A program made the position numbers and the translations under genes. Of a DNA stretch of 40,726 bases, positions 8,964 to 31,110 are shown in pieces; the first letter of the stretch is position 1; every line of letters starts with the position of its first letter. Location: positions 1 to 40,726 of the forward strand of contig JAPLJS010000115.1 of assembly GCA_026388545.1 (NCBI GenBank), given 5' to 3'. The stretch is from Deltaproteobacteria bacterium. Lineage in GTDB: Bacteria > Desulfobacterota > Syntrophia > Syntrophales > UBA2185. Under the pieces are notes generated by a model, which was not told the DNA's origin, searched no databases, and saw only the letters and a program-made list of their open reading frames with translations.

Positions 8964-8965
8964 TT

Positions 8966-11900
8966 TTATCTGATCGGCTCCTCGTGTCTTAACATGGGTT
9001 CGAATATGGTCATGGCCAGTTCGCGGAATTCGGTATCCAGCGGGTCGATCTGCCTGAAGCACAACCGGTAGTAAGGGTTATCGTTTTCAGCATATTCGAA
9101 GGCTTCCCATTTGCCCTTGGCTGTTCTCATTGCTTTTTCCGGTTCTGTAACCTTTGTCGCTTGTTCGGCATAGGCCAAAGAAGATTCAGGAAAAAAATGG
9201 AGGGGTATACGGAGTCCCTTCCAGTAAATGTCGAGAAGGATTCGCAGGTACGTTTCCGTATCTTCCACCTGAGAATATCTAAACGCCCTGTCTTCACCGA
9301 CAATGACCGTCTCCCGAACCGCTGCCTGTTCGCGGAGATGATTGAGGACAAGGTGGGAAATCCAGGCTGTGATCCGATCACGGCCTTTAATCTTTGCCAG
9401 GCGGTAGGAGACCAGCCCGCCGGGATAGACATTGACGAGCCGTCCTGTCAGGTGAAAACCGTCAACGGCTATGTCCACCGCTATGGGTTCTCTCTGCCCT
9501 CCTTCGATATGGGGGTGAATCTTCGTGATAAAATTGGTGGTCGATGTGCACAGGTCGTCATAGCAACAGAGGCCGGGTGACCCGTGGGGCAGCCTTCCCG
9601 ATGCCTGCATGAGGGGATACACATCACGGAGCGGTTTCTCCTCAAGGGCTCTGGCGACAAGTTCTTGCCTCATGAGATACTGTTCCAGCTTGTTCAGTTC
9701 AAACGGTTCGCTCTCATCCATAATGGCAGGTTCTTCAAGGAGGTGGATGCCCAGCCGGTGTCTAAGAAGAAATCTCGCCGGGTTTGAGAAGAAATAACCC
9801 AATGATTCCAGCTTGATCATTTTACATTCCTCTTCGGGTTCGGAAAGTCCGGTCGGTATGAATGGAGCGGTCACCTTGCGGCCTGACACGGCGCTTTGCG
9901 CCGCCCGGAGATTTTCGGCGGAATAGCTGAAAAGCTTTCCAATACCAGCGAAATAAGCGGGACTGAACGCTTGGAGGCGATGTTGAGAGACAATTCCCTC
10001 CCGGACGGTTTCACCGAATCCCTCTTCGATATAATCCAGGAGTTCGCTCACCAGTACCGATGGGGGACGGTTGCTGTTGTCTTTCATGCTCCGGCCGACA
10101 TAGCTGATATGGAGCTTCTGCCGGGCCGACAGTATGGCTTCGAGGAAGAGATGACGGTCGTCCATACGACGCGAGCGGTCGCCGATCCGGGGAGAAGCTG
10201 CCATGAGGTCAAATCCGAGCTTGCGAGATTGCCGGGGATAGGAAGCATCGTTCATGCCGATCAGGCAGATGACCTTGAAGGGGATACTCCTCATGGGGAG
10301 GATGGTGCAAAAGGTCACGCCGCCGGTCAGGAAACCGGCGCCGAATCCACTCTCTTTCAGGTTTTGCTTGAGCCAGGCTTTGATCACATCGAGGCCGATT
10401 TTCTCCGCGAATCCGCAGGACGCCTGTATGTCCGGAAGGTTATGAATGACTCGCCGGATCGCCTGGATGTCCCTCAACTGATTTTCATCATCGGAAAAGA
10501 ATGCTTCAAGGATCTCGATGAGAAAATCCCCCCACTCATTCAGGGTTTTCTTTTCTTCGAGCGCTGCCATGAACCGGAAAAACGTTTCCGTGAATTGCAG
10601 AAAATGACCGAGGATTTCCGTGCTTCCGCCTTCGATGCCGTTGAAAGGAAGGATTCCCATGAAAAGAGTGTCTTCGGAACCGGCCGGCATGGCATACCCG
10701 AGGAGCATCCTGTCAAGTCCGGCCCGCCATGTGTTCGAGGAATACGCCGGCAGACCCAGCGTTTCTTTGTTTTGGGCGTCTATCCCCCAGCGGATGCCGG
10801 TTTCGCGAATCCAGTGGTGAATGAGCGCCAGGTCTTCTTCGGTTAGAGAAAATTTGGTGCGCACGGTATCCGCTTCCAGAAGATCAAGCACACCGGAGAC
10901 TTCATACCGGCTTCCCGCCAGGTCTAATAGTTTGAGAAATGTGTCGATGAGGCCGCTTTCATTAAGCAGCCCCCTGTCGGCGATGGTGAAGGGAAGACAT
11001 CGCGAATCATCGGGAGGGATGGAAAAGATTGCCTGAATGAACGGCGCGTAAAGCTCAATGTCCGGGATCATGACCAGGACGTCGTCGGGGCGAATATCAG
11101 GGTGGTTCGCAAAGATGGCAAGGAGCGAGTCCTGCAACACCTCAATCTCCCTGAGCGGACTATGACAGGAGTGAACCTGCAGGGAGTCATCAGCTTCGGG
11201 GAAGGGGAGTGCGCCTGTGCTCTTCCGTTCCCTCAAATTCAGGATGTCGGACTGGATCGCGGCAAGGAGTGTATTTTCTCCCGGATCTTCGAATGCGGTC
11301 GCCTCTTCGCACTGGATTTCACCGATCATGTGAAAGAACTCCCGGCCAAGTGCGCCCATGGAAGCAAGCAGGCGATTACCCACTTCCAGATACAGTTCTC
11401 CGGGGAGAACATCCCCTCCTTTCTGTCCGCTTACATACCGGTTCATTTCCCGGTCGGAAACGATGTCTCCCCAGAATTCACGGCATGGGTTCATCAAAAA
11501 AAGATTGACGTTGATCACGGATGAAACGGCCGCGAGAATCTGAATGTAAAACGGAGGAAGGGCCGAGATGCCGAAAATGGAAATTCTCTCGGGAACGGTC
11601 CTGAACTCTTTATGCGAATCCCGCATGGCCCGGAGAAAACTATCATGGAGCGCTGCCCGGTGAACCTTTCCCTTCTCCTTGACGAGTTTCCGCCAGAGTA
11701 TTGCCTGCCATTGATCTTCTATGCCCCGGTCCCAATTGAGAATCATGTCAGGCCTGAAGAGAAGGTACTGGTCGAAGAGATCGGCGATCCTCACGGAGAG
11801 CTGAAACAGTTTAAGGTCAATATCGGCTCCTCCAAAATAGGTCTTGATGGCCTGAAACTCGGGATTGTCAAGCATGGATGGAAGGACGCGCATGACATCC

Positions 11901-12181
11901 CAGGACATGATCATGGGTTCGTATGGCGAATGATCGGGCACATCCGGGAGTATTTCCTGAAAGAGGTTATGGACGAAATGAATCGGGTAGGGGAAGCGGA
12001 CATTCGCGCAAATGCCGTTGCGTTGTGACAGCTCCATGGAGAGCCAGCGTTCCATGCCTTTGCTCTGGACGAGGATAATTTCACTCGCAAGCGGGTGATT
12101 CAGGGGAACCTTCAGGACATCCGCAAGAAGCTTCACCAGAATTTCCATCCGGTTGCTTGTATAGAGCGTTAAGCCCGGCAT
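8966..12181 (-). CDS. recC: Exodeoxyribonuclease V subunit gamma (RecC)
   Basis: 1071 aa from ATG 12181 (MPGLTLYTSNRMEIL), preceded by AGGTAAT; a TTG eight codons upstream also keeps the frame open but has no support. RecC holds RecB and RecD together and recognises Chi; it is a degenerate helicase-nuclease without catalytic motifs. Family features: the N-terminal LTLYTSNRMEIL, ILVQSKGMERWLSMELSQRNGICANVRFP..., SIFGISALPPFYIQILAAVS, a later PMRSIPFKVICLIGMND followed by the DRHLFLEAILSARQKLHISYVGRS segment, all typical of RecC. Its stop is 2 nt before the recB start, so the two are co-translated. It is likely expressed separately from the Nudix gene upstream, since two hairpin repeats lie in the gap. 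Confidence 0.95.
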   Translation of the reverse strand: MPGLTLYTSNRMEILVKLLADVLKVPLNHPLASEIILVQSKGMERWLSMELSQRNGICANVRFPYPIHFVHNLFQEILPDVPDHSPYEPMIMSWDVMRVLPSMLDNPEFQAIKTYFGGADIDLKLFQLSVRIADLFDQYLLFRPDMILNWDRGIEDQWQAILWRKLVKEKGKVHRAALHDSFLRAMRDSHKEFRTVPERISIFGISALPPFYIQILAAVSSVINVNLFLMNPCREFWGDIVSDREMNRYVSGQKGGDVLPGELYLEVGNRLLASMGALGREFFHMIGEIQCEEATAFEDPGENTLLAAIQSDILNLRERKSTGALPFPEADDSLQVHSCHSPLREIEVLQDSLLAIFANHPDIRPDDVLVMIPDIELYAPFIQAIFSIPPDDSRCLPFTIADRGLLNESGLIDTFLKLLDLAGSRYEVSGVLDLLEADTVRTKFSLTEEDLALIHHWIRETGIRWGIDAQNKETLGLPAYSSNTWRAGLDRMLLGYAMPAGSEDTLFMGILPFNGIEGGSTEILGHFLQFTETFFRFMAALEEKKTLNEWGDFLIEILEAFFSDDENQLRDIQAIRRVIHNLPDIQASCGFAEKIGLDVIKAWLKQNLKESGFGAGFLTGGVTFCTILPMRSIPFKVICLIGMNDASYPRQSRKLGFDLMAASPRIGDRSRRMDDRHLFLEAILSARQKLHISYVGRSMKDNSNRPPSVLVSELLDYIEEGFGETVREGIVSQHRLQAFSPAYFAGIGKLFSYSAENLRAAQSAVSGRKVTAPFIPTGLSEPEEECKMIKLESLGYFFSNPARFLLRHRLGIHLLEEPAIMDESEPFELNKLEQYLMRQELVARALEEKPLRDVYPLMQASGRLPHGSPGLCCYDDLCTSTTNFITKIHPHIEGGQREPIAVDIAVDGFHLTGRLVNVYPGGLVSYRLAKIKGRDRITAWISHLVLNHLREQAAVRETVIVGEDRAFRYSQVEDTETYLRILLDIYWKGLRIPLHFFPESSLAYAEQATKVTEPEKAMRTAKGKWEAFEYAENDNPYYRLCFRQIDPLDTEFRELAMTIFEPMLRHEEPIR

Positions 12182-12211
12182 GAATTCATTACCTGGAATG
12201 TACAAACTGTA

Positions 12212-12272
12212 ATTCCGGACTTGATCCGGAATCCATGTTGTTTAAATACTTGATTCCTGCTTCCGCAGGAAT
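12212..12272. repeat. Two adjacent hairpin repeats between recC and the Nudix gene
   Basis: ATTCCGGA-loop-TCCGGAAT (12212-12219 and 12225-12232) and ATTCCTGC-TTCC-GCAGGAAT followed by GAC (12253-12272). Each has a perfect 8-bp stem. They match the common GGAATGAC-type bacterial intergenic repeat and could attenuate transcription entering recC. Confidence 0.75.
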
Positions 12273-12299
12273 GACAAAGAGGGGTGAAGGCGTTATCGT

Positions 12300-12749
12300 T
12301 TACATTTTCTTCAGCGCAAAATAATCCGCAAGAATTTCTTTATGGTCAAACGCAATAGGGGAGGGCAGGTTATCCCTCGTAAAGATGCCCACTTCTGCGG
12401 CATCATCTGCGGCACGCGGCTGTCCGCTTGCCTTTGCGAAATAGACGGTGGAAATGGCATGGTGGCGGGGGTCCCTGTCCGGCCTTGAGTAGGTGTGCAG
12501 CTGTTTGATCAGTTTTACATCGAGCCCGGTTTCTTCCTTTGCTTCTCTTACAGCGGCATCCTCAAGGGATTCTCCATAGTCAACAAAGCCCCCCGGAATG
12601 GCCCACCCGAAGGGAATATTTTTCCGCTTAATGAGCAGAATACCCTGGTTGTCCAGTTCAATAATGATATCCACTGTGGGAAGGGGATTGAGATAACCTT
12701 CTGTTTCTGCACCGCAGTTTTCGCAACTCTTTTTGGTTTTGGTGCTCAT
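12300..12749 (-). CDS. Nudix hydrolase
   Basis: 149 aa. The Nudix box GX5EX7REUXEEXGU is complete: G54, E60, R68-E69, E72-E73, G75, so Mg-dependent cleavage of a nucleoside-diphosphate-linked substrate is expected. The core around it ([22 protein letters not shown]) fits the ADP-ribose/NAD-type branch. A CENC pair at residues 9-12 is a short remnant of the zinc-ribbon seen before some Nudix domains, but only one Cys pair is present. ATG 12749 lacks a strong RBS. It lies 33 bp downstream of pckG in the same orientation and may be co-transcribed with it. The substrate cannot be assigned from sequence. Confidence 0.92.
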
Positions 12750-12782
12750 TATACATCCAAAATATATTGAAAATGCAGCTTT

Positions 12783-14570
12783 TTACTTTGATAACCTCTT
12801 CTCAAGGGCATTCAATTCATCTTTGAGACCTTGCGGAAGCTTATCGCCAAATTGACTGTAGTATTCTTTAATATTTTCAACCTCAATGCGCCAATCATTA
12901 ACATCCACCTTCAGAAGTTCTGCAATATCCTCGGAAGACACATTGAGTCCTGAAGTATCGATGGCGCCGGGCGCAGGCACATAACCGATGGGAGTCTCAA
13001 TGGCTTTTCCCGTTCCCTCGATCCTCTCGAAAATCCATTTGAGGATGCGGCTGTTTTCACCGTAACCCGGCCATAACCACCTGCCGTCAGATGTTTTACG
13101 GAACCAGTTTACATAGAAGATTCTGGGGAGCTTACTTGGATCACCTTTCTTCCCCATTTCAAGCCAGTGTTTGAAATAATCTCCCATGTGGTAGCCGCAG
13201 AAGGGAAGCATCGCGAAGGGATCTCTGCGCACTTCGCCGACCTTTCCCGCCGCCGCCGCGGTTTTTTCGGAACTGGCGATGGAACCCATAAAGGTGCCAT
13301 GCTGCCAATTGAAAGCCTCAAAAACGAGCGGGAGGATAGTGGCGCGACGTCCGCCAAAGAGAAATGCGGATATTGGGACGCCCTTCGGGTCTTCCCATGC
13401 AGGATCGATTACCGGACACTGGCCTGCCGGAGCGGTGAATCGAGCATTGGGATGGGACGTTAATCGACCACAACCCCGTGTCCATTCCTGCCCTTTCCAG
13501 TCAATAAGCTTTTCCGGTGCTTCTTTTGTCATTCCCTCCCACCAGACGTTACCATCGGGGGTCAATGCAACATTAGTAAAAATTGAATTTTTTGTCATGC
13601 TCAGCATGGCGTTCGGATTGGATTCCATGGATGTACCCGGCGCAACGCCGAAGAAACCGTATTCGGGATTGATGGCGTGAAGCATTCCATCCTCCTTGCT
13701 GAACTTCATCCAGGCAATATCATCTCCGACGCATTCCGCTGTCCATCCGGGAATTGTGGGTATCAGCATAGCGAGATTGGTCTTGCCGCAGGCGCTGGGG
13801 AAGGCGCCGGTTAAGTATCTTTTAACACCACTGGGAGAAGTAATGCCCAGTATCAGCATATGTTCGGCCATCCAGCCTTCGTCACGCGACATTACTGATG
13901 CGATGCGGAGGGAAAAGCACTTTTTGCCTAAGAGTGCATTGCCGCCATAACCGCTTCCGAAAGACCAGATTTCCCTGTCCTCAGGGAAATGAACGATATA
14001 TTTCTGCTCATTACACGGCCACGGAACATCCTTTTCACCGGGATTGAGGGGCTTGCCGACAGAGTGCAGGCAGGGGACAAAATCTCCATCCGGCCCGAGG
14101 ACATCAAGAACAGCTTTACCCATACGGGTCATGATTCTCATGTTGCAGACGACGTATGGCGAATCAGTTATTTCTATACCGATATGGGCGATATTGGAAC
14201 CTAAAGGCCCCATGCTGAAAGGGATAACGTACATGGTTCGCCCTTTCATGCACCCGTTAAAAAATCTTGTGAGGGTATTTTTCATCTCGACAGGGTCGCA
14301 CCAGTTATTCGTAGGTCCGGCATCTTCTTCCTTTTTTGAACAGACAAAAGTCCTTTCTTCGACCCGTGCTACATCGGCAGGATCTGATTTACAAAGGAAA
14401 CAATTTGGTCGTTCCTCCTCGTTAAGTTTGATAAAAGTACCGGACTTAAGCATAAGATCACACATTGCATCATATTCTTCCTGTGATCCGTCGCACCAGT
14501 GAATGCGATCCGGCTTGCACATATCCGCCATTTCCTTTACCCACTTAATAAGTTTCTGGTTTGATGTCAT
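12783..14570 (-). CDS. pckG: Phosphoenolpyruvate carboxykinase (GTP)
   Basis: 595 aa, full length for the GTP-dependent family. It interconverts oxaloacetate + GTP with PEP + CO2 + GDP; in anaerobes it can run in either direction. Visible are the P-loop-like kinase-1a motif PSACGKTN (SACGKTN at 259-265), the kinase-2 motif GDDIAWM (282-288), the [21 protein letters not shown] block and the [13 protein letters not shown] segment, all characteristic of GTP-PEPCK instead of the ATP-dependent enzyme. ATG 14570 has the RBS AAGGAAGG. It is transcribed from the promoter at 14741-14769 with a leader of about 165 nt. Confidence 0.97.
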
Positions 14571-14740
14571 AACTATCCTTCCTTATAGAATGAATTAATT
14601 ATATTTTATCTATCGCACTGCAGTGAAGTGCCGTAGAAACCTTTGTTTTCATAATAGAGTTGACATGGACGATATCATGAAAGCGACGAAAGGTTTTCAC
14701 TGACTATTAACTTGGCAAGTGCCTTATTTAAAGCGCAGAG

Positions 14741-14769
14741 AGTATAGAGAAGAGGGGTTTTTGTGTCAA
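14741..14769 (-). promoter_or_regulatory. sigma70-type promoter of pckG
   Basis: Minus strand TTGACA (14764-14769) and TATACT (14741-14746) with a 17-bp spacer. The leader to ATG 14570 (about 165 nt) contains a possible long-range AAACCTT/AAGGTTT pairing and a GCACT..AGTGC hairpin near 14619-14634; no known riboswitch was recognised. Confidence 0.75.
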
Positions 14770-14981
14770 GAAGAAAACAATCTCAATGAGAGTATTCATA
14801 CGCTTCAAGAATGTAATTGAAAGTAATTGTTATTATTAATAAATATATCATGCAGGTATTTCGTTCCGCTTCTTGAGAATAAATAACAATGCGCGATCGG
14901 TTTAATCCTGAAATGAGTCTTGACAATTGACAGGCAATAAATTAGCTTACGCAGCGAAAGAAAACGTTCGGGAGATAAATA
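14770..14981. other. Divergent upstream region of pckG and the EIIA gene
   Basis: AT-rich. Two overlapping TTGACA hexamers (14920-14925 and 14927-14932) face the EIIA gene but no good -10 follows at 16-18 bp, so the promoter call is weak. No sigma54 -24/-12 element is seen. Confidence 0.35.
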
Positions 14982-15389
14982 ATGATCGGCGTTATTATAA
15001 CAACCCATGGCAACCTGGGAAGTGAGCTAATAAAAGCGGCTGAGCTCATCAAGGGGAAATTAGAGGGCGTAAGCTACATCTCTGTTGATCAGACAAATGG
15101 AATGGAGGAAATAAAAAAGCGAATAAGCTCATCCATTAAAAAGCTGGAACAGGGCCAGGGAGTACTGATACTTACAGATCTTTTCGGTGGTACGCCTTCA
15201 AATATTTCTCTGTCTTTCCTTAAAGAAGGAAAATTGGAAGTTGTAACCGGTGTTAATTTACCGATGCTGTTAAAACTTTACGATAAGAGACAGGAAATGA
15301 ATCTTAAAGATTTTGCCCTATATATCAAAGAATATGGTAAAAAAAATATATATTTAGCGAGCGAGGTATTAAGTAAAAAGGTGGAATGA
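14982..15389 (+). CDS. PTS mannose-family EIIA component
   Basis: 135 aa, the size of a lone EIIA-Man domain. The phosphorylated histidine is His9 in IITTHGNLG; LTDLFGGTPSN is the second conserved block. EIIA-Man accepts phosphate from HPr. In Desulfobacterota such single EIIA proteins often occur without sugar-specific EIIB/C and are thought to act in regulation (PTS-Ntr-like) more than in transport; that is an inference, since no HPr, EI, HPr kinase or RapZ gene is in this window. RBS GGGAG precedes ATG 14982. The gene is followed by 170 bp of repeat-bearing sequence, so it may be monocistronic. Confidence 0.9.
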   Translation: MIGVIITTHGNLGSELIKAAELIKGKLEGVSYISVDQTNGMEEIKKRISSSIKKLEQGQGVLILTDLFGGTPSNISLSFLKEGKLEVVTGVNLPMLLKLYDKRQEMNLKDFALYIKEYGKKNIYLASEVLSKKVE

Positions 15390-15407
15390 AAATCATCTCA
15401 TAGTGAG

Positions 15408-15455
15408 GCTCCACGCAGCCCGCTGCGGGGAATTAACTCGCTGCGGATTCCATCA
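15408..15455. repeat. GC-rich palindromic repeat
   Basis: CGCAGC/GCTGCG motifs occur in CCACGCAGCCCGCTGCGGGG and again in CTCGCTGCGG, giving alternative hairpins. It is of the type dispersed between genes in this group and could terminate the EIIA transcript. The rest of 15390-15558 is featureless. Confidence 0.5.
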
Positions 15456-21417: not shown

Positions 21418-22362
21418 CTACACTATACCATCCTGCCGCTTCAGCCATCCCGTTACATCCTCTATCAGTGACACTCTGAAATCCTCTGGTGCCAGGAGCA
21501 CAATATTGGGGATCCAGGACTTGAGAATATTGCGTATGGCCTCGTAGTGGCCAACCCTGAAGGTGACGACCAGTGACCCGTCCGGCTTTTCCTCTTTGAT
21601 TTCCTGGGTCGGGAACATCTTCCGGCGCTTGAAATAATGGCTGACCTGGGCATCGATCAGAACCGTGACTTCCAGGTTCATCTCTTCGGCAAACCAAATA
21701 TTGGTGCTGCTCCGAAGGACGGTATCCAAATCCGCCGGGGCACCTTTGAAGAGGGTTTTTGACAATCTGAAATCCCCGATCTTGTCCAGAGCATAACGCT
21801 TGAGGATACCCGTGGCGGGCTCATTCCCGATGAGATACCAGAAACCGCCGAAATAGACGACCCGGTAGGGATCCATCTGGACAGTATGAGGTCCCTTTCC
21901 GGTGACATACTGGAAGCCGACTTGTCTCTTCTCCCGGATGGCCTTTACCATCCGGTTTAGAAGGGAACCATCCAGAGGAACGGCGTCATCGATCTTCACA
22001 AAGATGGGCATGGTTGTCACGCAGTCATACAGACGGTCCAAGACACCGTCGGCTGCCTCCTGGAAAGGCTGGCCCAACTGCCCCACAATATTCTTCAGGG
22101 CCACAACCAGGGCCAGCTCCGTGTCGTCAAAGACCTCCAGGTTCTTCACCAGGTCCTTGCTCATCTGATGGATTCCTTTCTGAACTTCATGCAGAGGAAA
22201 GCCGGATTCCTTCAGCAACAGGAGATCCCGCTGGATCGTCCGGGGGGTCGTCTGGAAGTGCTGACTCAGCCAAGTGCTGGAGACCTTCTCCTTCTCCATG
22301 AAGACTCTGAGGATCTGGCCCAGGCGGATCAGTTTCGTCTGTGTACTTCGATCACGGCTCAT
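21418..22362 (-). CDS. WYL-domain transcriptional regulator (HTH-WYL-WCX)
   Basis: 314 aa. An N-terminal DeoR/HTH_11-like winged helix (residues about 8-55, with the recognition region VSSTWLSQHFQTTPRTIQRDL), a WYL domain (about 135-215: VGFQYVTGKGPHTVQMDPYRVVYFGGFWYLIG) and a WCX C-terminal extension (about 225-310). This is the architecture of BrxR/CapW-type repressors that control phage-defence operons; WYL domains sense nucleic acid or nucleotide ligands. The gene diverges from the defence genes with a 240-bp shared control region; RBS CAGGAGGG precedes ATG 22362. Repression of the facing operon is inferred from layout. Confidence 0.92.
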   Translation of the reverse strand: MSRDRSTQTKLIRLGQILRVFMEKEKVSSTWLSQHFQTTPRTIQRDLLLLKESGFPLHEVQKGIHQMSKDLVKNLEVFDDTELALVVALKNIVGQLGQPFQEAADGVLDRLYDCVTTMPIFVKIDDAVPLDGSLLNRMVKAIREKRQVGFQYVTGKGPHTVQMDPYRVVYFGGFWYLIGNEPATGILKRYALDKIGDFRLSKTLFKGAPADLDTVLRSSTNIWFAEEMNLEVTVLIDAQVSHYFKRRKMFPTQEIKEEKPDGSLVVTFRVGHYEAIRNILKSWIPNIVLLAPEDFRVSLIEDVTGWLKRQDGIV

Positions 22363-22602: not shown

Positions 22603-22800
22603 ATGCCAGACAGCTTCGTTACTCTTGAGGAAATTCAGGCTAAATTGAAGGAGCACCAGTTTGCGGTTGCTTATTATGTGATACTGGAAGAAGCTTTGCT
22701 TCATGGAGATTTTGTTTTCTTCAACGATGAGGCTCCATCTTACCGTATCGTAAGAAAAGGGCAACCTGATTGGAACTCAATGATCAAATTGAATCACTAA
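22603..22800 (+). CDS. Small protein of unknown function (65 aa), defence-island leader gene
   Basis: 65 aa with a very strong RBS (AAGGAGGTGATAAG before ATG 22603). The sequence is a short amphipathic alpha/beta protein (VTLEEIQAKLKEHQFAVAYYVILEEALL ... SYRIVRKGQPDWNSMIK) with no signal peptide, membrane segment or cysteines. I do not recognise the family. A decayed relative of its C-terminus (PYRIVRKNQPDW) lies at 23876-23920 with mostly synonymous differences, which shows the gene has been under selection. It is followed by a strong hairpin at 22814-22841. It may be the antitoxin-like or regulatory first gene of a module. Confidence 0.75.
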   Translation: MPDSFVTLEEIQAKLKEHQFAVAYYVILEEALLHGDFVFFNDEAPSYRIVRKGQPDWNSMIKLNH

Positions 22801-22813
22801 ATCAATTCTGCTT

Positions 22814-22841
22814 GGATGCTCAAATTATAGCTTGAGCATCC
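22814..22841 (+). terminator. Hairpin after the 65-aa gene
   Basis: GGATGCTCAA-8 nt-TTGAGCATCC, a perfect 10-bp stem 13 nt after the stop. No U-run follows directly, so it may be a processing or attenuation hairpin instead of a full terminator. Confidence 0.5.
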
Positions 22842-22984: not shown

Positions 22985-23164
22985 ATGGATACGTTAAAAC
23001 AGGAAGCATTGAATGTGATCGCAAAGATACCAGAGACGGCAGACATCGACACGATTATGTACCGGCTCTATGTTGTCGATAAAATTCGGAAAGGCAGAGA
23101 GGCGGCTGAAAGAGGTGAAACAATCTCAATTGAAGACTTAAAACGGGAAATCGAGTCATGGTGA
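22985..23164 (+). CDS. Type II antitoxin (RelB-like partner of RelE/ParE)
   Basis: 59 aa from ATG 22985, preceded by GAAGGAGGG; an ATG at 22955 would add an unsupported 10-residue extension. It is a short helical protein (VIAKIPETADIDTIMYRLYVVDKIRKGREAAERGETISIEDLKREI), with a C-terminal toxin-wrapping segment. The family is common next to RelE-type toxins. The end overlaps the toxin start (ATGGTGA), so the two are translationally coupled with the antitoxin first. A 33-nt relative of its 3' end survives at 23923-23955. Confidence 0.85.
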   Translation: MDTLKQEALNVIAKIPETADIDTIMYRLYVVDKIRKGREAAERGETISIEDLKREIESW

Positions 23165-23490
23165 TCTGGACCAATCCGGCAAAAGCTGATTTAAAGTCCA
23201 TTCACAACTTTATTGCATCAAATTCGAAATATTACGCTAAAAAAGTCACGCGGGATATCGTTGAAAAAACGGATACATTGAATAAATTTCCGATGATCGG
23301 CCGGGTTGTTCCTGAAACCGATAACGAGAAGATTCGAGAAATATTCGCCTATTCCTACAGGATCATTTACGAAATCAAGCCGGACCACATTTACATTTTG
23401 GGTATTATTCATGGAAAACAGGAGCTTACATCGACGGATCTTTATACCATACAGGAACCGTGCGCATCCATGAAAATACGCAAAGAATGA
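23158..23490 (+). CDS. Type II toxin, RelE/ParE superfamily
   Basis: 110 aa. RelE/ParE fold: VIWTNPAKADLKSIHNFIAS N-terminal helices, then PMIGRVVPET, IREIFAYSYRIIYEI and HIYILGIIHGKQEL. The RIIYEI and HGKQ blocks match the family; whether it cleaves mRNA (RelE) or poisons gyrase (ParE) cannot be decided. It overlaps the antitoxin by 7 nt. Residues after 95 (QEPCASMKIRKE) are a divergent tail. Its place inside a nuclease defence operon suggests stabilisation of the island or an abortive backup. Confidence 0.88.
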   Translation: MVIWTNPAKADLKSIHNFIASNSKYYAKKVTRDIVEKTDTLNKFPMIGRVVPETDNEKIREIFAYSYRIIYEIKPDHIYILGIIHGKQELTSTDLYTIQEPCASMKIRKE

Positions 23491-23537: not shown

Positions 23538-23849
23538 ATGAGTACCGACAGAAGCATCAGGACGGATCGTGCTAAAACAAGAGAAAAGATAATTGACAGA
23601 TCGAAGTATCCAGACAAAGATGGTAGAAATTGGCTTGGTCATGAGACAACGTCGGGAGCTGCAAAGGTCGATGAACTTCTCATGGATGGAGAATATAAAG
23701 ATAAGCTAATTGCTATTGACCTTGGGTACACTATATACAAAGGTTACCCAAACCACAAACCGCACTTACGCGAAGCGCATGGGTTAAAAGTGGTTCGAGA
23801 CACAACAGGGAAATATTTGTTTGACCGTGCAGATTTGGGGATGAGTTAA
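23538..23849 (+). CDS. Small protein of unknown function (103 aa), paralogue of 24055-24666
   Basis: 103 aa; ATG 23538 follows TAAGGAGATATT. Family unknown. Residues 28-100 align with residues 26-115 of the 203-aa protein: DG-x2-WL-x-H (28-35), V-DE-LL (44-48), G-E-Y (51-53), a helix ending HLREAHGLK and a final strand D-x2-GKYLFD. The spacing (two helices, then a short beta hairpin) resembles a winged helix, so DNA or nucleic-acid binding is a reasonable inference but not shown. The basic N-terminus (MSTDRSIRTDRAKTREK) is unrelated to the 203-aa protein. It lies 48 bp after the toxin gene. Confidence 0.75.
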   Translation: MSTDRSIRTDRAKTREKIIDRSKYPDKDGRNWLGHETTSGAAKVDELLMDGEYKDKLIAIDLGYTIYKGYPNHKPHLREAHGLKVVRDTTGKYLFDRADLGMS

Positions 23850-23875
23850 ACATAACGCGCTACATAACTCCACCC

Positions 23876-23955
23876 TACCGGATTGTGAGAAAAAATCAAC
23901 CTGATTGGATGCTCAAATTTCGGAAGATTTGAAGCGGGAAATAGCATCATGGTGA
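23876..23955 (+). pseudogene. Fused remnant of the 65-aa gene and the antitoxin gene
   Basis: Positions 23876-23908 match 22741-22773 in 27 of 33 bases and encode YRIVRKNQPDW as in the 65-aa protein, with three synonymous codon changes. Positions 23923-23955 match 23132-23164 in 27 of 33 bases and encode EDLKREIASW-stop as in the antitoxin, again mostly synonymous. The frames differ and everything between is missing, so this is the scar of a deletion inside a duplicated module, not a gene. Confidence 0.85.
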
Positions 23956-24054: not shown

Positions 24055-24666
24055 ATGGGTGATGGAAGAAAAGAAGATTACTTTAAGAGAACTCAAGATA
24101 TGTTAAAGGGTTTAATTCCGGCGATCGTAGATGGTCAATCTTGGCTCGATCACAAAGGTGAACAGGCTTGGCGAATAGATGAAATGATATTAGCTGGCAA
24201 ATATACCATTAAGGATATTGCCAGGGTGATCTATGATATACAGCCTTCTGATCGAATTAAGCCACTCAAAATCATGATACAAAGAGTGAATAAACACAAA
24301 GATCATCTTACGGATAAGTTTAATGTGAATATGGCACCTCACCGCTTTCAGGTTAAGGTAGGGCCCGATGGTATTGTAAGGTTTGACTTTACCGCAATGA
24401 AACTTTCTATCGATAATCAATCGGCTCTCCAAGAAAAAAATAAAGATATTCAGCAACATAGTGGCTATCTGCCCAACCGTAGCGATTTCAAGAAAGCCTA
24501 CAAGTCGATTGTAGGAGAAATGGGCAAAAAGGGCGCCATTGATGACGTACTGGATCAAATGCAGCGTGATGCCGAAAAGGATGGAAAAACAATGAAGCCA
24601 AACTGGCGCATGATTACGGAAGCTAATATCAGAATATGGGAGAGCGATGAGGATGACAAAAAATGA
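24055..24666 (+). CDS. Unknown protein (203 aa), likely recognition subunit of the McrBC-like system
   Basis: 203 aa; ATG 24055 has TTGGGAGGATAAAAG upstream. Its stop overlaps the McrB-like start by 4 nt (ATGA), so it is a dedicated partner. Residues 26-115 form the domain shared with the 103-aa protein (DGQSWLDH, IDEMILAGKYTIKDIARVIYD, HKDHL, VKVGPDGIVRFDF), which has a winged-helix-like layout. Residues about 135-203 are a separate helical segment (SDFKKAYKSIVGEMGKKGAIDD ... NWRMITEANIRIW) with an acidic tail. No known family was recognised. Because the adjacent AAA protein lacks the N-terminal target-recognition domain of McrB, this protein is proposed to provide recognition; that is inference. 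Confidence 0.8.
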   Translation: MGDGRKEDYFKRTQDMLKGLIPAIVDGQSWLDHKGEQAWRIDEMILAGKYTIKDIARVIYDIQPSDRIKPLKIMIQRVNKHKDHLTDKFNVNMAPHRFQVKVGPDGIVRFDFTAMKLSIDNQSALQEKNKDIQQHSGYLPNRSDFKKAYKSIVGEMGKKGAIDDVLDQMQRDAEKDGKTMKPNWRMITEANIRIWESDEDDKK

Positions 24667-25874
24667 CCAAAATGAAAGTTGATTGGACCAAGAGAACTGT
24701 GAAAATGTGGGGGACTATGGAGCATATCTATGACTATTTTGAGGAAAAGGACTATTTCTTTTCTCGGGAAATCCTTACCCGCTACTTCCTCTCTCTGAAA
24801 ACAAAGCCTTTTGTCATCCTCACTGGGATTTCCGGAACAGGAAAAACGAAGATCGCGCAGGTCTTTGCTGAATATATGTGCCAGGATGAGAAAACACAGG
24901 AGGAACGGGAAAGTCGTATCGCCTTTGTGCCGGTCAGACCTGACTGGATGGACAACAAAGGACTCCTGGGCTACTACAACCTCCTCGATGAAAAATATTA
25001 TGCGACACCGGTACTACGCCTGCTTCTGGAAGCGGAAGAACATCCCGAGAAGCCCTATTTCGTCATCCTCGACGAGATGAACCTAGCCAAGGTGGAGCAG
25101 TATTTTTCGGATTTTCTCAGTATTATGGAGAGCCGTACCCCTGGCAATCCCAAGGGCGAAGCGATCCCTCTGCACGCCCTGAATAAACCCGCGCAGACAC
25201 TCGATGGCCTGAATATTCCTCCAAAAATCCACGTCCCACCGAATGTCTATTTCACGGGAACTGTCAACGTGGATGAATCTACCTACATGTTCAGCCCAAA
25301 GGTTCTGGATCGGGCAAACGTTATCGAATTCAACGAGGTGAACCTGGATAACTACGCAAAAGGGATTATCCCGTCGGACCACTTTGCCCTTAAGGACCCG
25401 GATGTGAGACAGCGCCTGCTACCTGCTGACGGCGACAGCCCTTTCTGTACAAAGAAGGATTTTATTGAGGCCATGAAAGTTGATGCAGACGTCGGCGATT
25501 ATCTCAACGAACTTCTGGACATTCTGCGTCCCTTCAACCTTCACTTCGGCTACCGCGTTATCAACGAGATCAGCCGCTACATTTGCTATGCTTTAGATGC
25601 TGTTGACAAATTCGACCTCAATACCGTCATGGACATACAGATCCTCCAGAAGATCCTCCCAAAATTCCACGGTGCCCAAGCAAGGATGGGGGAGCCCTTG
25701 TCGCGGCTGTTTGCGTCCTGTTGCAATGACGAAGATGAAGGCGCACTTGCTGATGACTATCTCCGTAAAGCGGCTGAGTATAACGAAACCCCTCCCTGTC
25801 CCCGGTCGGCCCGGAAGCTGGCCCGGATGATCCTGAACCTGAAGAGTCAGGGATATACAAGCTTCATCGAGTAA
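24663..25874 (+). CDS. McrB-like AAA+ NTPase
   Basis: 403 aa. Walker A GISGTGKT (55-62), Walker B with the McrB signature ILDEMNLAKVEQYFSDFLSIME (DEMN at 137-140) and NVYFTGTVNVDESTYMFSPKVLDRA (GTVNVDES at 199-206), where McrB has a MNTADR-like motif. McrB is the GTP-driven motor that forms a ring and activates the McrC nuclease. Only about 50 residues precede Walker A, so the usual DNA-recognition domain is missing. Overlaps the 203-aa gene by 4 nt and is followed 6 nt later by the McrC-like gene. ATP versus GTP preference cannot be read from the sequence. Confidence 0.92.
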   Translation: MTKMKVDWTKRTVKMWGTMEHIYDYFEEKDYFFSREILTRYFLSLKTKPFVILTGISGTGKTKIAQVFAEYMCQDEKTQEERESRIAFVPVRPDWMDNKGLLGYYNLLDEKYYATPVLRLLLEAEEHPEKPYFVILDEMNLAKVEQYFSDFLSIMESRTPGNPKGEAIPLHALNKPAQTLDGLNIPPKIHVPPNVYFTGTVNVDESTYMFSPKVLDRANVIEFNEVNLDNYAKGIIPSDHFALKDPDVRQRLLPADGDSPFCTKKDFIEAMKVDADVGDYLNELLDILRPFNLHFGYRVINEISRYICYALDAVDKFDLNTVMDIQILQKILPKFHGAQARMGEPLSRLFASCCNDEDEGALADDYLRKAAEYNETPPCPRSARKLARMILNLKSQGYTSFIE

Positions 25875-25880
25875 GTAAAT

Positions 25881-27596
25881 ATGTCTATCCTGCGCTACAC
25901 CCCTGAAATCCGCATGGCCATCGCTGATGAGCCCATGTTTCCTGCCGCTGTGGAAGAGGTTGCTGCGTGCAGCAGCATTGACGACGCACTGACTCTTCAG
26001 GACTGGAAAACCTATTTTGTCAAGTTCTACACGGAAGAAGTACCCGCCTTCTTCCCCGCTCCCGAACAGTATTACAACTATCGTCGATTTCCCGGCCAGC
26101 TCTTCGAGATTGGCTTCCGAAACGCAGCGGGCCTGACACGCATCGGTCCCGTTCCCGTTCGTGTGCAAAGCAGAAAGATCCCGGAGGCCCTCTATCAGGA
26201 AATGCTCGATTATATCGCCGATCAGTATGCCAACCTGGCCTTCAGTTTCGATACGCTCACGGGCCAGCACTACGGGAAGCCACAGGCGGGCCGGGACATT
26301 GCCTACATCGAATACCTGTTTCTCAAGAAATACCTTCTCGATGCTTCACCAAACCTGGACGGCATCGCCGCCCTGATCCTTGCCGACCCCCACCGGCGGT
26401 TGCACCGGGAATTTCGTCGCTGCGATATCAGCGCCGTGACATCACCCCATCCGGCCATGTTGATGTCTCTGTTGACGTCACCTGAGCGGATGACCATCCT
26501 CAAATCAGGACATCCTCTGCTGGCGGCGGGTCTAGGGCGTTCCCTGTTAAGCAGAACCGGCCGCGGGCTTTATCCCGCCGAGGCCATCGAAGAGTACAAG
26601 TATCATTCGGTGGACACCAACGAAAACCGCTTTGTAAAATATCTGCTGGAAACCATTCAGCGGCGCCTGGATGGTCTGAAGAAGGCCCTGACAGGAAAGG
26701 GTGGCGGATACCTGAACCCGGAGATTGAAGGACGCATCGGGGAAATGGCCAAGAATATCCGGCGATTTCTGGCCGATCCACTCTGGAACGATGTGGGCAG
26801 CCTCCATTTCCCACCTCTCCAGTCTCAGGTCTTACAGAGGCGGGATGGCTACCGGCAAATCTTTCAACTCTATTGTCTCCTCCAGCTCGCATCCCGTTGC
26901 GCCTTTGACGAAGAGGATTTCCGAAACTTGCTCGAAACGAAAGACACCCCAACACTTTTCGAATACTGGTCATTTTTTGTCGTCAAGGAGATCATGGACA
27001 GCCTCCTCAAGAGAACCTCCTGCGGCGTCATCGTCAATGACCACCCCATGGAACAGACAGTCACCCAGGGGATCTGCATCCACTATGAAGAAGGCGTGTC
27101 TCTCTGGTTCAACAGGAGTTTCGGCGGGTCGAGAGGCTGGCGCACAGGAGAAGGCACAGGAGCGGAGGATGATAGAGAAGCGGGGATGGAAGAAGATTAT
27201 TCTGCTAACGACGCATCCACCGGTGAAAGTTATTCCCATACTTTACGCCCCGATATGGTCATTTCCAAGGGTGAAACACTCCTTATCTTTGACGCCAAAT
27301 TCAAGGAAAAAAGTGGTGGTTTTTACTGTGAAGATGAATCCGGCGCGATTACCAAATGGAAAGAGGAAGACATAAACAAGATGCACGCCTACCGGGAGGC
27401 GATCCGCCATGCCGCGGGGGCCTATATAATCTATCCTGGGGAAACCGGCATTGTCTATAAGGCCCACGATGCGGTAAAACCCTTTGAGGGCGTAGGGGCA
27501 TTTCCCCTGAAACCAGAGACGGGGGCGAAACCAAATAAGCAACACCGTCATAAGATTCGCAGCGCCATTGTGGATTTCATTGAGAAGGACCGTTGA
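25881..27596 (+). CDS. McrC-like PD-(D/E)XK nuclease (DUF2357/COG1700 type)
   Basis: 571 aa. The N-terminal half (to about 330) fits the DUF2357-type McrC scaffold that docks on an McrB ring. The C-terminal half is a restriction-endonuclease-like nuclease: a TLFEYWSFFVVKEIM helix with the family Glu-x-Trp pattern, then D458 in LRPDMVI and D471-A-K473 in LLIFDAKFK, a complete catalytic set. Residues about 415-445 are a Gly/Asp/Glu-rich linker (GSRGWRTGEGTGAEDDREAG). It starts 6 nt after the McrB-like gene; together they form a type IV restriction-like pair. The pair normally cuts modified DNA; the target here is unknown. Confidence 0.9.
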   Translation: MSILRYTPEIRMAIADEPMFPAAVEEVAACSSIDDALTLQDWKTYFVKFYTEEVPAFFPAPEQYYNYRRFPGQLFEIGFRNAAGLTRIGPVPVRVQSRKIPEALYQEMLDYIADQYANLAFSFDTLTGQHYGKPQAGRDIAYIEYLFLKKYLLDASPNLDGIAALILADPHRRLHREFRRCDISAVTSPHPAMLMSLLTSPERMTILKSGHPLLAAGLGRSLLSRTGRGLYPAEAIEEYKYHSVDTNENRFVKYLLETIQRRLDGLKKALTGKGGGYLNPEIEGRIGEMAKNIRRFLADPLWNDVGSLHFPPLQSQVLQRRDGYRQIFQLYCLLQLASRCAFDEEDFRNLLETKDTPTLFEYWSFFVVKEIMDSLLKRTSCGVIVNDHPMEQTVTQGICIHYEEGVSLWFNRSFGGSRGWRTGEGTGAEDDREAGMEEDYSANDASTGESYSHTLRPDMVISKGETLLIFDAKFKEKSGGFYCEDESGAITKWKEEDINKMHAYREAIRHAAGAYIIYPGETGIVYKAHDAVKPFEGVGAFPLKPETGAKPNKQHRHKIRSAIVDFIEKDR

Positions 27597-27684
27597 AGAA
27601 GACGACTAAGTGTCCACTCATCGAGGTCACACAGGAGAAGCAGAGGTTGCACATTCGTGAAATACCGGTTATGAGATTTCGCTT

Positions 27685-30600
27685 ATGCAGAAAGTAAATA
27701 GTCAAACCCTCTTTTCCGCCTCCGATGTGGTCAACTTTCTGGAATGCGAGCATCTGACAACCCTCGATCTGATTAATCTAGACACACCCCTTCTCAAGGC
27801 AGAGGACGACGAAGAGACGCTTCTTTACCAATCCAAAGGGATTGCCCATGAAGCAGCGTATTTTGATCGCCTCAAACAGCAATCACCTTCTTTCGCCGAT
27901 ATTTCCGGTATCAAGTATGATCTTGATGGAGCGGTCAAAGCAACCCGTGACGCCATGTACGCCGGGGCGGAGATCATTTTCCAGGCCGCCTTGCGCGATG
28001 GCTGTTTTATCGGCCATGCGGACTTTCTAAGAAGGGAGCATACTCCTTCTGAACTTGGTGCTTTCAGCTACGAGGCTGTGGATACAAAGCTTGCCCGCAG
28101 AGCCAAGGCCAAGTTTCTTATTCAGCTCTGTTTTTACTCCGAGCTCATTGCCAAAGTTCAAGGACGCGATCCCGTTATGATGCATGTCGTCCTGGGTGAC
28201 AGACGTGAGGAGGCCTTTCGCTACGCTGATTACTCCAAGTATTATGAATCGCTTAAAAGGCGCTTTCTCATCAGGGTTCAATCCGATACCGGCGAAACCT
28301 ACCCTGACCCCTGTGAACGTTGCGACACATGCCGATGGCGAAACCTGTGCGAGGAACGCCGATGCCAAGACGACCATCTCTGCCAAGTGGCCAATATCAC
28401 GAAATTGCAGATCAGGAAACTTACCGAGCATGGCATCAAGACGTTAGAGTCCCTTGCCGTTTTGCAGGAAGACGAACGCGTCCCGACGATGGCCCCGGAG
28501 ACGCTCGCCACACTCCGTCATCAGGCAGCGCTGCAACACAAGAAACGGCAAACCGGAGAAGATCATTTTGATCTGCTGCCATTGGATCCGAAAGGGAAAC
28601 GCGGTTTTTTCAGACTGCCGAAACCCGATGCCGGGGATATCATCTTCGATATGGAGGCAGACCCCTTGGAGGAAGGCGGACTGGAATACCTCTTCGGGGT
28701 TTACTTTCTTGAACACGGCAAGCCCCGTTTCCAGAGCTTCTGGGCCCATACACAATATGAAGAACGGCGAGCCTTTGAACAGTTCATGGATTTTGTCGCC
28801 AACCGTCTGAATCAATACCCAAACGCACACATTTACCACTATGCTCATTACGAAGAGACGGCGTTGAAGCGGTTGATGTCTCTCCACGGAATACGCGAGG
28901 CCGAGGTAGATAATCTTTTACGTTTCGGAAAACTCATCAACCTCTATAAAGTGGTTCGGGAAGGGATGAGAATATCTGAGCCCCGATATTCCATCAAAAA
29001 TGTCGAGCGCTTCTATATGGATGAACGATCAGGTCCGGTCAAGGACGCAGGAATAAGCATCGTCTATTACGAGCGTTGGAAGGAGACAGGGGATAAGAAG
29101 CTGCTAAAGGAGATTGAGGAATATAATCGTGATGACCTGAGATCAACTTATAAACTCCGGCAATGGCTTCTAACCCTGCGGCGGGATGAGCTTCCCTGGG
29201 CGAATGATTCAGTAAATTCCTCGACGGCATCTCAGCAAGATATCCGTGAATTGAATGAAGTTGAATTGCGACTGGCACATTACCGGGAACGGCTTGTTGA
29301 CCCCCTTCCCGAAAACCGTGATGAGTGGACAGAACAGGATGGACTCAAAGAACTTACATATCAGCTTCTGGATTTTCACCGGCGCACCGAAAAACCGGTA
29401 TGGTGGTCTCTTTTCTCCCGGCAGGAAATGACGGATGAAGAGCTTATCGACGATGTCGAGGCTATCGGGGGATTGGTCAGAGATCCCAAAAAGCCTCCCC
29501 AGCAGGTTAAGCGGTCGTTCATTTACACATTCTTATTTCCGGAACAGGAAACGAAACTGAAAACAGGCGATACCTGCGTTCGCACGGATACCCTCGACAA
29601 GGTTAATAACGTAATCGTCAGTGAGGATGGCCGTTGCTTAACATGCAGCTATCCAATGAACAAAGGCACATTGCCGGAGAAAATGAATGTTGGTCCGAGC
29701 GGCCCGATATCAACAAAACCACTTAAAGACGCGCTTTTCCGCTTTGCCGATCATCTTATCGAGGGAAAGAAGAGATACATGGCCCTGGAGTCTATAATGC
29801 GTCAAGAGATTCCACGCATCAAGGACCATCCTGAGGGTACGGCGATTATCAATGAATCACTGGAGCGGCTGCCCCAGATTATCGAAACGGTGGCCAAGCT
29901 TGATTCCAGTTACGTCTTCATACAGGGACCACCCGGTTCCGGGAAAACATATAGCGGTTCCCGCGTTATCGTGGAACTGCTTCGCCGTGGCTGCCGCATC
30001 GGCGTCTCATCGAACAGTCATAAGGCCATCAACAATCTTCTCTGGAATGTCGAGGCCGTTGCGAGTCAACAAAACATTCAATTTAGCGGGGTAAAGAAAT
30101 CGACGCGAGACAAGGCCGAAAGCGAATTTCATGGCGATTTCATTCAAGATGTGTTCAGCAATGATGATATATTTGGCGGAAATTGGCAGCTTGTTGCCGG
30201 TACTGCTTGGTTGTTCTCCCATGAAAATATGGACCAATCCCTGGATTTTCTTTTTGTTGACGAAGCGGGACAAGTTGCCCTGGCCAATCTCATCGCCATG
30301 GGAACAAGCGCCAGAAACATTGTCCTCCTCGGCGATCAGATGCAACTTGGACAACCGATTCAAGGCGTTCATCCAGGACGATCAGGGGAATCGTCTCTTG
30401 ATTATTTACTGAACGGAATAGCCACTATCCCGCCTGAGCGGGGAATATTTCTTGGAACGACATGGCGCATGCATCCGGATGTTTGCCAGTTTATCTCGGA
30501 GGCAGTCTATGACGGCCGCCTGAAACCAGATGTTTCCAACAATATACAATGCCTGATAATTTTGAAAAACGCCCATCCATTTCTCAAACCTACGGGTATC

Positions 30601-31110
30601 TGCTATATCCCCGTCGAACATGACGCCTGCTCCCAGCGCAGCCAGGAAGAGGCCGATATTGTTATGAAGTTGTACGAAAACCTTTTGATGCAGCATTATC
30701 TGGATAAGAAAGGAAATAAACATCAGATCACCAATGAGAACATCCTTATCGTGGCGCCCTACAATATGCAGGTAAATCTTCTGAAGACATTGCTGCCGGA
30801 GGGTGCGCGGGTGGGAACGGTAGACAAATTCCAGGGACAGGAGGCTGAGGTGGTGATCATATCGATGGCAACATCCAGCGGCGATTATCTGCCGAGGTTT
30901 ATTGAGTTCCTGTACAGTAAAAACAGACTTAATGTCGCAATCTCAAGGGCAAAATGCCTTGCGATCCTTATTGCAAATCCGGCGCTGATGTCAATTCGCT
31001 GCACGACGCCGGAGCAAATGGCTTTAGTGAATACACTCTGCTGGGTTAAGCGCTACCAGGATAAAAACAATAAGCCTGAACATCCAACGACTTGTGTTGA
31101 TAATCTGTAA
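27685..31110 (+). CDS. TM0106-type nuclease - DEDD exonuclease - Dna2/Upf1-like SF1 helicase
   Basis: 1141 aa, three enzymes in one chain. (1) Residues about 10-235: RecB/Cas4-like nuclease with D113 (GHADFL), D133-T-K135, QLCFY at 147, and an Fe-S set C21 plus C213-x2-C216-x5-C222, with extra cysteines at 210, 227 and 233. (2) About 315-500: DEDD/RNase_H_2 exonuclease (IIFDMEADP with D322 and E324, HYAHYEETAL, YNRDDLRSTYKL). (3) About 735-1120: SF1B helicase with Walker A GPPGSGKT (748-755), Walker B FVDEAGQ (D859), GDQMQLGQPIQG, TVDKFQGQEAEVVIIS and NRLNVAISRAK. All active sites look intact. It lies 88 nt after the McrC-like gene; the start at ATG 27685 has a poor RBS but matches the family N-terminus (ASDVVNFLECEHL). 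Confidence 0.93.
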   Translation: MQKVNSQTLFSASDVVNFLECEHLTTLDLINLDTPLLKAEDDEETLLYQSKGIAHEAAYFDRLKQQSPSFADISGIKYDLDGAVKATRDAMYAGAEIIFQAALRDGCFIGHADFLRREHTPSELGAFSYEAVDTKLARRAKAKFLIQLCFYSELIAKVQGRDPVMMHVVLGDRREEAFRYADYSKYYESLKRRFLIRVQSDTGETYPDPCERCDTCRWRNLCEERRCQDDHLCQVANITKLQIRKLTEHGIKTLESLAVLQEDERVPTMAPETLATLRHQAALQHKKRQTGEDHFDLLPLDPKGKRGFFRLPKPDAGDIIFDMEADPLEEGGLEYLFGVYFLEHGKPRFQSFWAHTQYEERRAFEQFMDFVANRLNQYPNAHIYHYAHYEETALKRLMSLHGIREAEVDNLLRFGKLINLYKVVREGMRISEPRYSIKNVERFYMDERSGPVKDAGISIVYYERWKETGDKKLLKEIEEYNRDDLRSTYKLRQWLLTLRRDELPWANDSVNSSTASQQDIRELNEVELRLAHYRERLVDPLPENRDEWTEQDGLKELTYQLLDFHRRTEKPVWWSLFSRQEMTDEELIDDVEAIGGLVRDPKKPPQQVKRSFIYTFLFPEQETKLKTGDTCVRTDTLDKVNNVIVSEDGRCLTCSYPMNKGTLPEKMNVGPSGPISTKPLKDALFRFADHLIEGKKRYMALESIMRQEIPRIKDHPEGTAIINESLERLPQIIETVAKLDSSYVFIQGPPGSGKTYSGSRVIVELLRRGCRIGVSSNSHKAINNLLWNVEAVASQQNIQFSGVKKSTRDKAESEFHGDFIQDVFSNDDIFGGNWQLVAGTAWLFSHENMDQSLDFLFVDEAGQVALANLIAMGTSARNIVLLGDQMQLGQPIQGVHPGRSGESSLDYLLNGIATIPPERGIFLGTTWRMHPDVCQFISEAVYDGRLKPDVSNNIQCLIILKNAHPFLKPTGICYIPVEHDACSQRSQEEADIVMKLYENLLMQHYLDKKGNKHQITNENILIVAPYNMQVNLLKTLLPEGARVGTVDKFQGQEAEVVIISMATSSGDYLPRFIEFLYSKNRLNVAISRAKCLAILIANPALMSIRCTTPEQMALVNTLCWVKRYQDKNNKPEHPTTCVDNL

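Follow-up and report, generated by a model that had tools for sequence, protein, structure and literature searches.

A type IV McrBC relative from Syntrophales with predicted recognition subunits encoded outside McrB

We analysed a 40,726-nucleotide stretch of contig JAPLJS010000115.1 from a Deltaproteobacteria bacterium (UBA2185, Syntrophales), hereafter the window, and found in it an operon that is an McrBC variant with recognition predicted to lie outside McrB, whereas the described McrBC systems covered in the main text of the McrBC census and a 2025 review (PMC11090510, PMC12707154) have the target-recognition domain in McrB. The operon comprises four tightly spaced genes on the plus strand, A (24055-24666; 203 aa), B (24663-25874; 403 aa), C (25881-27596; 571 aa) and D (27685-31110; 1141 aa), with a 4-nt overlap between A and B and gaps of 6 bp and 88 bp between B and C and between C and D, respectively, as the original prediction had described. 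Comparison with related loci suggests, with a probability that we estimate at roughly 0.6, that these genes specify a type IV McrBC relative in which trans-acting, exchangeable recognition subunits dock on McrB, and in which D is an optional DNA-degrading helper. From the family and the genomic context alone, we infer an anti-phage activity.

The assignment of B and C as McrB-like and McrC-like proteins proved correct. B is a AAA+ ring NTPase that matches the E. coli McrB structures in the PDB (2.5e-6) and, over its AAA part, the PADLOC model PDC-M26A (2e-60). The Walker A (GISGTGKT), Walker B (DEMN) and NxD (NVDE) motifs, which together make up the signature of the McrB family, are invariant in B and six homologues. 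C matches DUF2357 (PF09823; 5e-45) and PDDEXK_7 (PF04411; 5e-15), the two parts expected of McrC, and residues D458, D471 and K473 of its PD-(D/E)XK nuclease are invariant among homologues. The pair thus resembles E. coli McrBC, in which a AAA+ McrB works with an McrC of the same two domains, although the E. coli protein has an NxxD motif where B has NxD. In classical McrB an N-terminal domain sets the specificity, according to the main text of the census and the review (PMC11090510, PMC12707154). In B, however, the AAA core is preceded by only ~30 residues, no specificity domain is fused to the N-terminus, and the candidates for recognition are separate genes. Because the classical architecture is absent, we file the operon as an McrBC variant.

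Related loci came from two sources: a search with C through 297 phylum genomes, which gave five close relatives having an adjacent McrB, and a scan of GTDB genomes with an McrB alignment, independent of A and D, which gave 80 loci. The close group (L027 to L040) has 51-68% best-segment identity; three of its members, L027, L028 and L030, are very closely related to each other and are therefore counted as one lineage. Since the B-C pair recurs in five other genomes of the phylum sample and at about 14 clade loci from GTDB genomes, the arrangement is not due to chance. McrB proteins of the clade are ~380-411 residues long and consist almost entirely of the AAA core, the exceptions being natural fusions in L017 and L033, and most of the distant McrBs have ~110-590 extra N-terminal residues ahead of the same core. 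One to three small A-type genes lie directly upstream of the bare McrB in the clade, and the operon core in homologous loci is accordingly (one to three A-type genes)-B-C.

A belongs to no family in Pfam, NCBIfam, PADLOC or PHROGs, and it has no match on plasmids or phages. It consists of an N-domain (residues ~1-110), or front, and a C-terminal domain (residues 138-203, encoded at 24466-24663 on the plus strand), which profile and model delineate as a three-helix adaptor shared with other A-type proteins. The block-mean pLDDT of the predicted helices is mostly 92-97. A profile seeded with ten A-type C-termini and then iterated matched 26 proteins in 15 loci, all of them encoded immediately ahead of McrB in the same orientation (one fused to it), and gave no match among the remaining ~1,340 of the 1,367 open reading frames searched. 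Applied to whole genomes (297 of the phylum and 155 of the class), the profile found McrBC loci only, the additional matches being those of L027, L028 and L030; the A-type genes of L034, L037 and L038 have divergent tails that it misses. Two adaptors from one locus are on average 51% identical, against 30% for adaptors from different loci, a difference reached in 0 of 5000 label shuffles; this count is descriptive because the pairs are not independent. The archaeal loci L043 and L046 also have the same adaptor tail on different fronts. In Candidatus Brocadia (L066, 3-2246) two tandem genes upstream of a bare McrB share a C-terminal tail that differs from the adaptor but is of similar kind, and the design may have arisen there independently.

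Searches for structural relatives of the adaptor gave only unconvincing matches between the profile and PDB sequences, and Foldseek returned no significant match for the model of A. With VIA-align, the winged-helix domains of ORC1/Cdc6 ranked first for the adaptor (Z 7.3, rmsd 1.8, 59 residues), a suggestive likeness, since ORC1/Cdc6 are AAA+ proteins, but one within the noise range of the tool.

The fronts behave differently from the tails. Those encoded in one locus have no mutual similarity, and match fronts of other loci instead. L027_8841 and L028_5762 have a common 127-residue front (72% identical) followed, beyond the boundary, by different adaptor types. In the draft genome L033 the front of L031_9253/L027_7855 is fused straight to McrB without an adaptor, and in the draft genome L017 a front and an adaptor are together fused to McrB; both fusions place the front where the classical specificity domain sits. 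The homogeneity of the tails within a locus, the switch between front and tail, and the natural fusions together give good comparative support to the idea of exchangeable fronts on a tail used for docking. A had been proposed as a recognition protein, and as the single dedicated partner of the McrBC pair. The related loci support recognition at the level of sequence comparison, and show A to be instead one member of a modular family with a common tail and a differing front half.

The same observations bear on whether the small upstream genes belong to the system at all. Upstream parts of defence loci are often mixed, and the window has a ParDE-like pair there, so that an ordinary McrBC with unrelated defence-island neighbours could look similar. 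We consider this very unlikely, in view of an adaptor that is confined to McrB-adjacent genes, homogeneous in a locus-specific way, and naturally fused to McrB.

The front of A contains a GxxWLxH...HxxHL motif and has a weak winged-helix-like prediction, with low model confidence. It occurs also on an HNH nuclease in L017 (PF13391, 3e-12), which links it to DNA, and it stands alone in L025 and, within the window, at 23538-23849 on the plus strand (103 aa; 33% identity over 45 aa, E 1e-5). The latter protein, which lacks the adaptor, may be a remnant or serve as a second sensor. The A-type N-domains have almost no family matches. A model of the L031_9253 front, built from four sequences, is similar to the YjbR/DUF419 fold, with Z 9.0 and 8.1 across ~100-110 residues, and the DNA-bound N-domain of McrB (8ik8) appears lower in the list (Z 4.3). 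YjbR/DUF419 proteins have been suggested to bind DNA through a double-wing motif, but because the confidence of the model is moderate, the likeness is only a hint that this front may bind DNA. Two further assignments were discarded: the archaeal L043_8716 appeared EVE-like by eye, which neither Pfam nor the PDB supported, and a suspected resemblance of the L027_8841 front to the ScoMcrA N-domain found no support in a search.

The fronts likely set DNA specificity, as far as the sequence comparison goes. A pattern of common tails and variable fronts would also fit if the A-type proteins were regulators or sensors that dock on McrB through the adaptor and keep it inactive (or activate it) pending detection of a phage protein or a nucleotide signal by the N-domain. 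The tails could just as well dock inhibitors or sensors of phage proteins, and the N-domains match almost no DNA-binding family. We nevertheless find this explanation doubtful: in L033 the place of the classical specificity domain on McrB is taken by such a fused N-domain, the N-domain of A recurs on the HNH nuclease, and the model of one N-domain is similar to a fold proposed to bind DNA.

We therefore prefer recognition in trans, for which we propose the following mechanism. The N-domain of A would recognise a DNA feature, while the three-helix adaptor would dock onto the bare B ring, replacing the classical N-terminal specificity domain of McrB; the structure models are of single chains, and docking is a prediction from the comparison of loci. 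B would use NTP to translocate DNA, with stimulation from the DUF2357 part of C, and the PD-(D/E)XK domain of C would make the cut. In operons that contain it, D would probably unwind the cut DNA and degrade it. In the relatives, several A-type proteins with unrelated N-domains and the same adaptor would guide one B-C engine to several targets. The N-domains may be exchanged via recombination at the adaptor boundary.

D, rightly described in the original prediction as a three-enzyme protein, matches TIGR03491 (8e-99; 331.6 bits against a cut-off of 97.5), RNase_H_2 (PF13482, 9e-31) and AAA_11/AAA_12. It is a protein of the TM0106/COG2251 type, combining a RecB/Cas4-like nuclease with four conserved cysteines, a DEDD exonuclease and an SF1 (UPF1-like) helicase. 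The catalytic motifs of all three parts show no variation across 13 homologues, among them the four cysteines and DxK motif in the nuclease, the DEDD residues, and the motifs of the helicase. This architecture of a DUF83-like nuclease, PF13482 and a AAA helicase has already been described (PMC3985635); what sets D apart from the family is its placement in an McrBC operon.

D lies inside the operon in four of about 14 lineages, namely the window, L027/L028/L030, L032 and L036, in the last of which it is placed in front of the A genes. In L040 it is located near the operon on the opposite strand, and in L034 McrBC is followed by three individual genes for the same activities (RNase_T, PDDEXK_1 and AAA_11/12). 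The L034 region (5553-15423) also contains an NERD/UvrD helicase gene upstream of McrBC, and the downstream exonuclease carries a WYL domain. Close homologues of D are present in only 2 of the 297 phylum genomes, and this rarity means that the linkage of D with McrBC is not due to chance. Linkage so far above chance, together with the split version in L034, could indicate that A-B-C-D is one obligate four-component defence system with D as its essential effector. This is improbable, since D is absent from L017, L029, L031, L033, L035, L037 and L039, stands alone in L110 and occurs in other contexts on plasmids. The fixed four-gene set that had been predicted was therefore rejected: at least seven related loci have no D, and elsewhere D occurs alone or with other systems.

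On plasmids, homologues of D adjoin a CoCoNuT-like DUF2357/cold-shock protein, a ubiquitin-like operon, and WYL and Abi genes. These varied contexts lead us to regard D as a mobile helper of several defence-like loci, for which degradation of cut DNA would be the likeliest role. On the Caballeronia plasmid NZ_CP049321.1 (L116, 3104-11462) the homologue stands beside the protein with DUF2357 and cold-shock domains, and on a Phenylobacterium plasmid (L118, 4600-11333) it ends the ubiquitin-like operon (multiubiquitin, E2, ThiF, DUF6527). Among viral contigs, neither the A domain nor D has a match, and McrB matches one distant prophage-like locus. A distant McrBC pair lies on a viral contig (L109) next to lysis- and tail-like genes, the neighbours being judged by eye.

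The WYL/WCX transcriptional regulator that had been assigned to the operon is a real gene (21418-22362, minus strand), divergent from it, and may regulate it, but it is present in only part of the clade: relatives with 71-73% identity are placed likewise, divergent from the operon, in L027, L028 and L030 only. Between the regulator and A lies a toxin-antitoxin-like pair, in which a 59-aa open reading frame (22985-23164) overlaps a ParE-family toxin gene (23158-23490; PF05016, 2e-17). The segment just ahead of A (23868-23955) contains degraded copies of 22733-22774, 22808-22826 and 23132-23164, which point to earlier duplication and deletion in this recognition-gene slot. Elsewhere in the window, two large overlapping open reading frames on the minus strand (5259-12205; 1267 and 1079 aa), the first of which matches PADLOC models of UvrD-type helicases, are possibly an AddAB-like pair.

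Several known systems share parts with the operon. The shortened motif NVDE groups B with the NxD branch of the census, which in its main text includes the CoCoNuTs and reports SF1 UPF1-like helicases accompanying some of them (PMC11090510). In contrast to CoCoNuTs, B is too short, judged by its length (403 aa, nearly all AAA core), for a fused long coiled-coil, the active site of the McrC nuclease is intact rather than absent or inactive, and no HEPN match was found among the operon proteins. LlaJI, as presented in the main text of the review (PMC12707154), likewise combines an McrBC-type engine with non-classical DNA recognition, but there the engine comes with two methyltransferases and a B3 domain for recognition, whereas the operon in the window has no methyltransferase and recognition is predicted in trans. 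The best-scoring match of D covers only the helicase end of MkoA (890-1102 of 1112) from the PADLOC system Mokosh (MkoA/MkoC), so that D is not a full-length MkoA-type protein, and the Mokosh partner models have no match among A to C. For the PADLOC candidate system PDC-M26, the match is limited to the AAA part of B (main match ~130 positions of a 724-aa profile), and A and C match no PADLOC model. Because the PADLOC search gave only this partial match for B, no described system matches exactly.

Relative to E. coli McrBC, the operon lacks a fused specificity domain, recognition is predicted to come from separate, tandem, exchangeable proteins, and D is added. In the main text of the census and the 2025 review, specificity domains are fused to McrB, with EVE, YTH or B3 domains replacing the classical one, and tandem trans-acting recognition proteins are not mentioned there (PMC11090510, PMC12707154); full-text literature searches did not find them either. 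Priority cannot be claimed with certainty, because more papers on related branches are announced in the census.

We lean slightly towards a hub-and-plug arrangement, in which one McrB-McrC engine is served by several co-encoded, separately exchangeable recognition proteins with a common docking domain. If this holds, targets would be changed or multiplied by swapping front halves, with the motor and the nuclease left unaltered, which would account for the coverage of several targets by a single engine, and the archaeal and Brocadia loci would extend such swapping beyond bacteria and to other lineages. The operon would then represent a type IV counterpart of the exchangeable specificity subunits of type I systems, and the A-type fronts would supply many unclassified domains that are candidates for recognising DNA, whether modified or unmodified.
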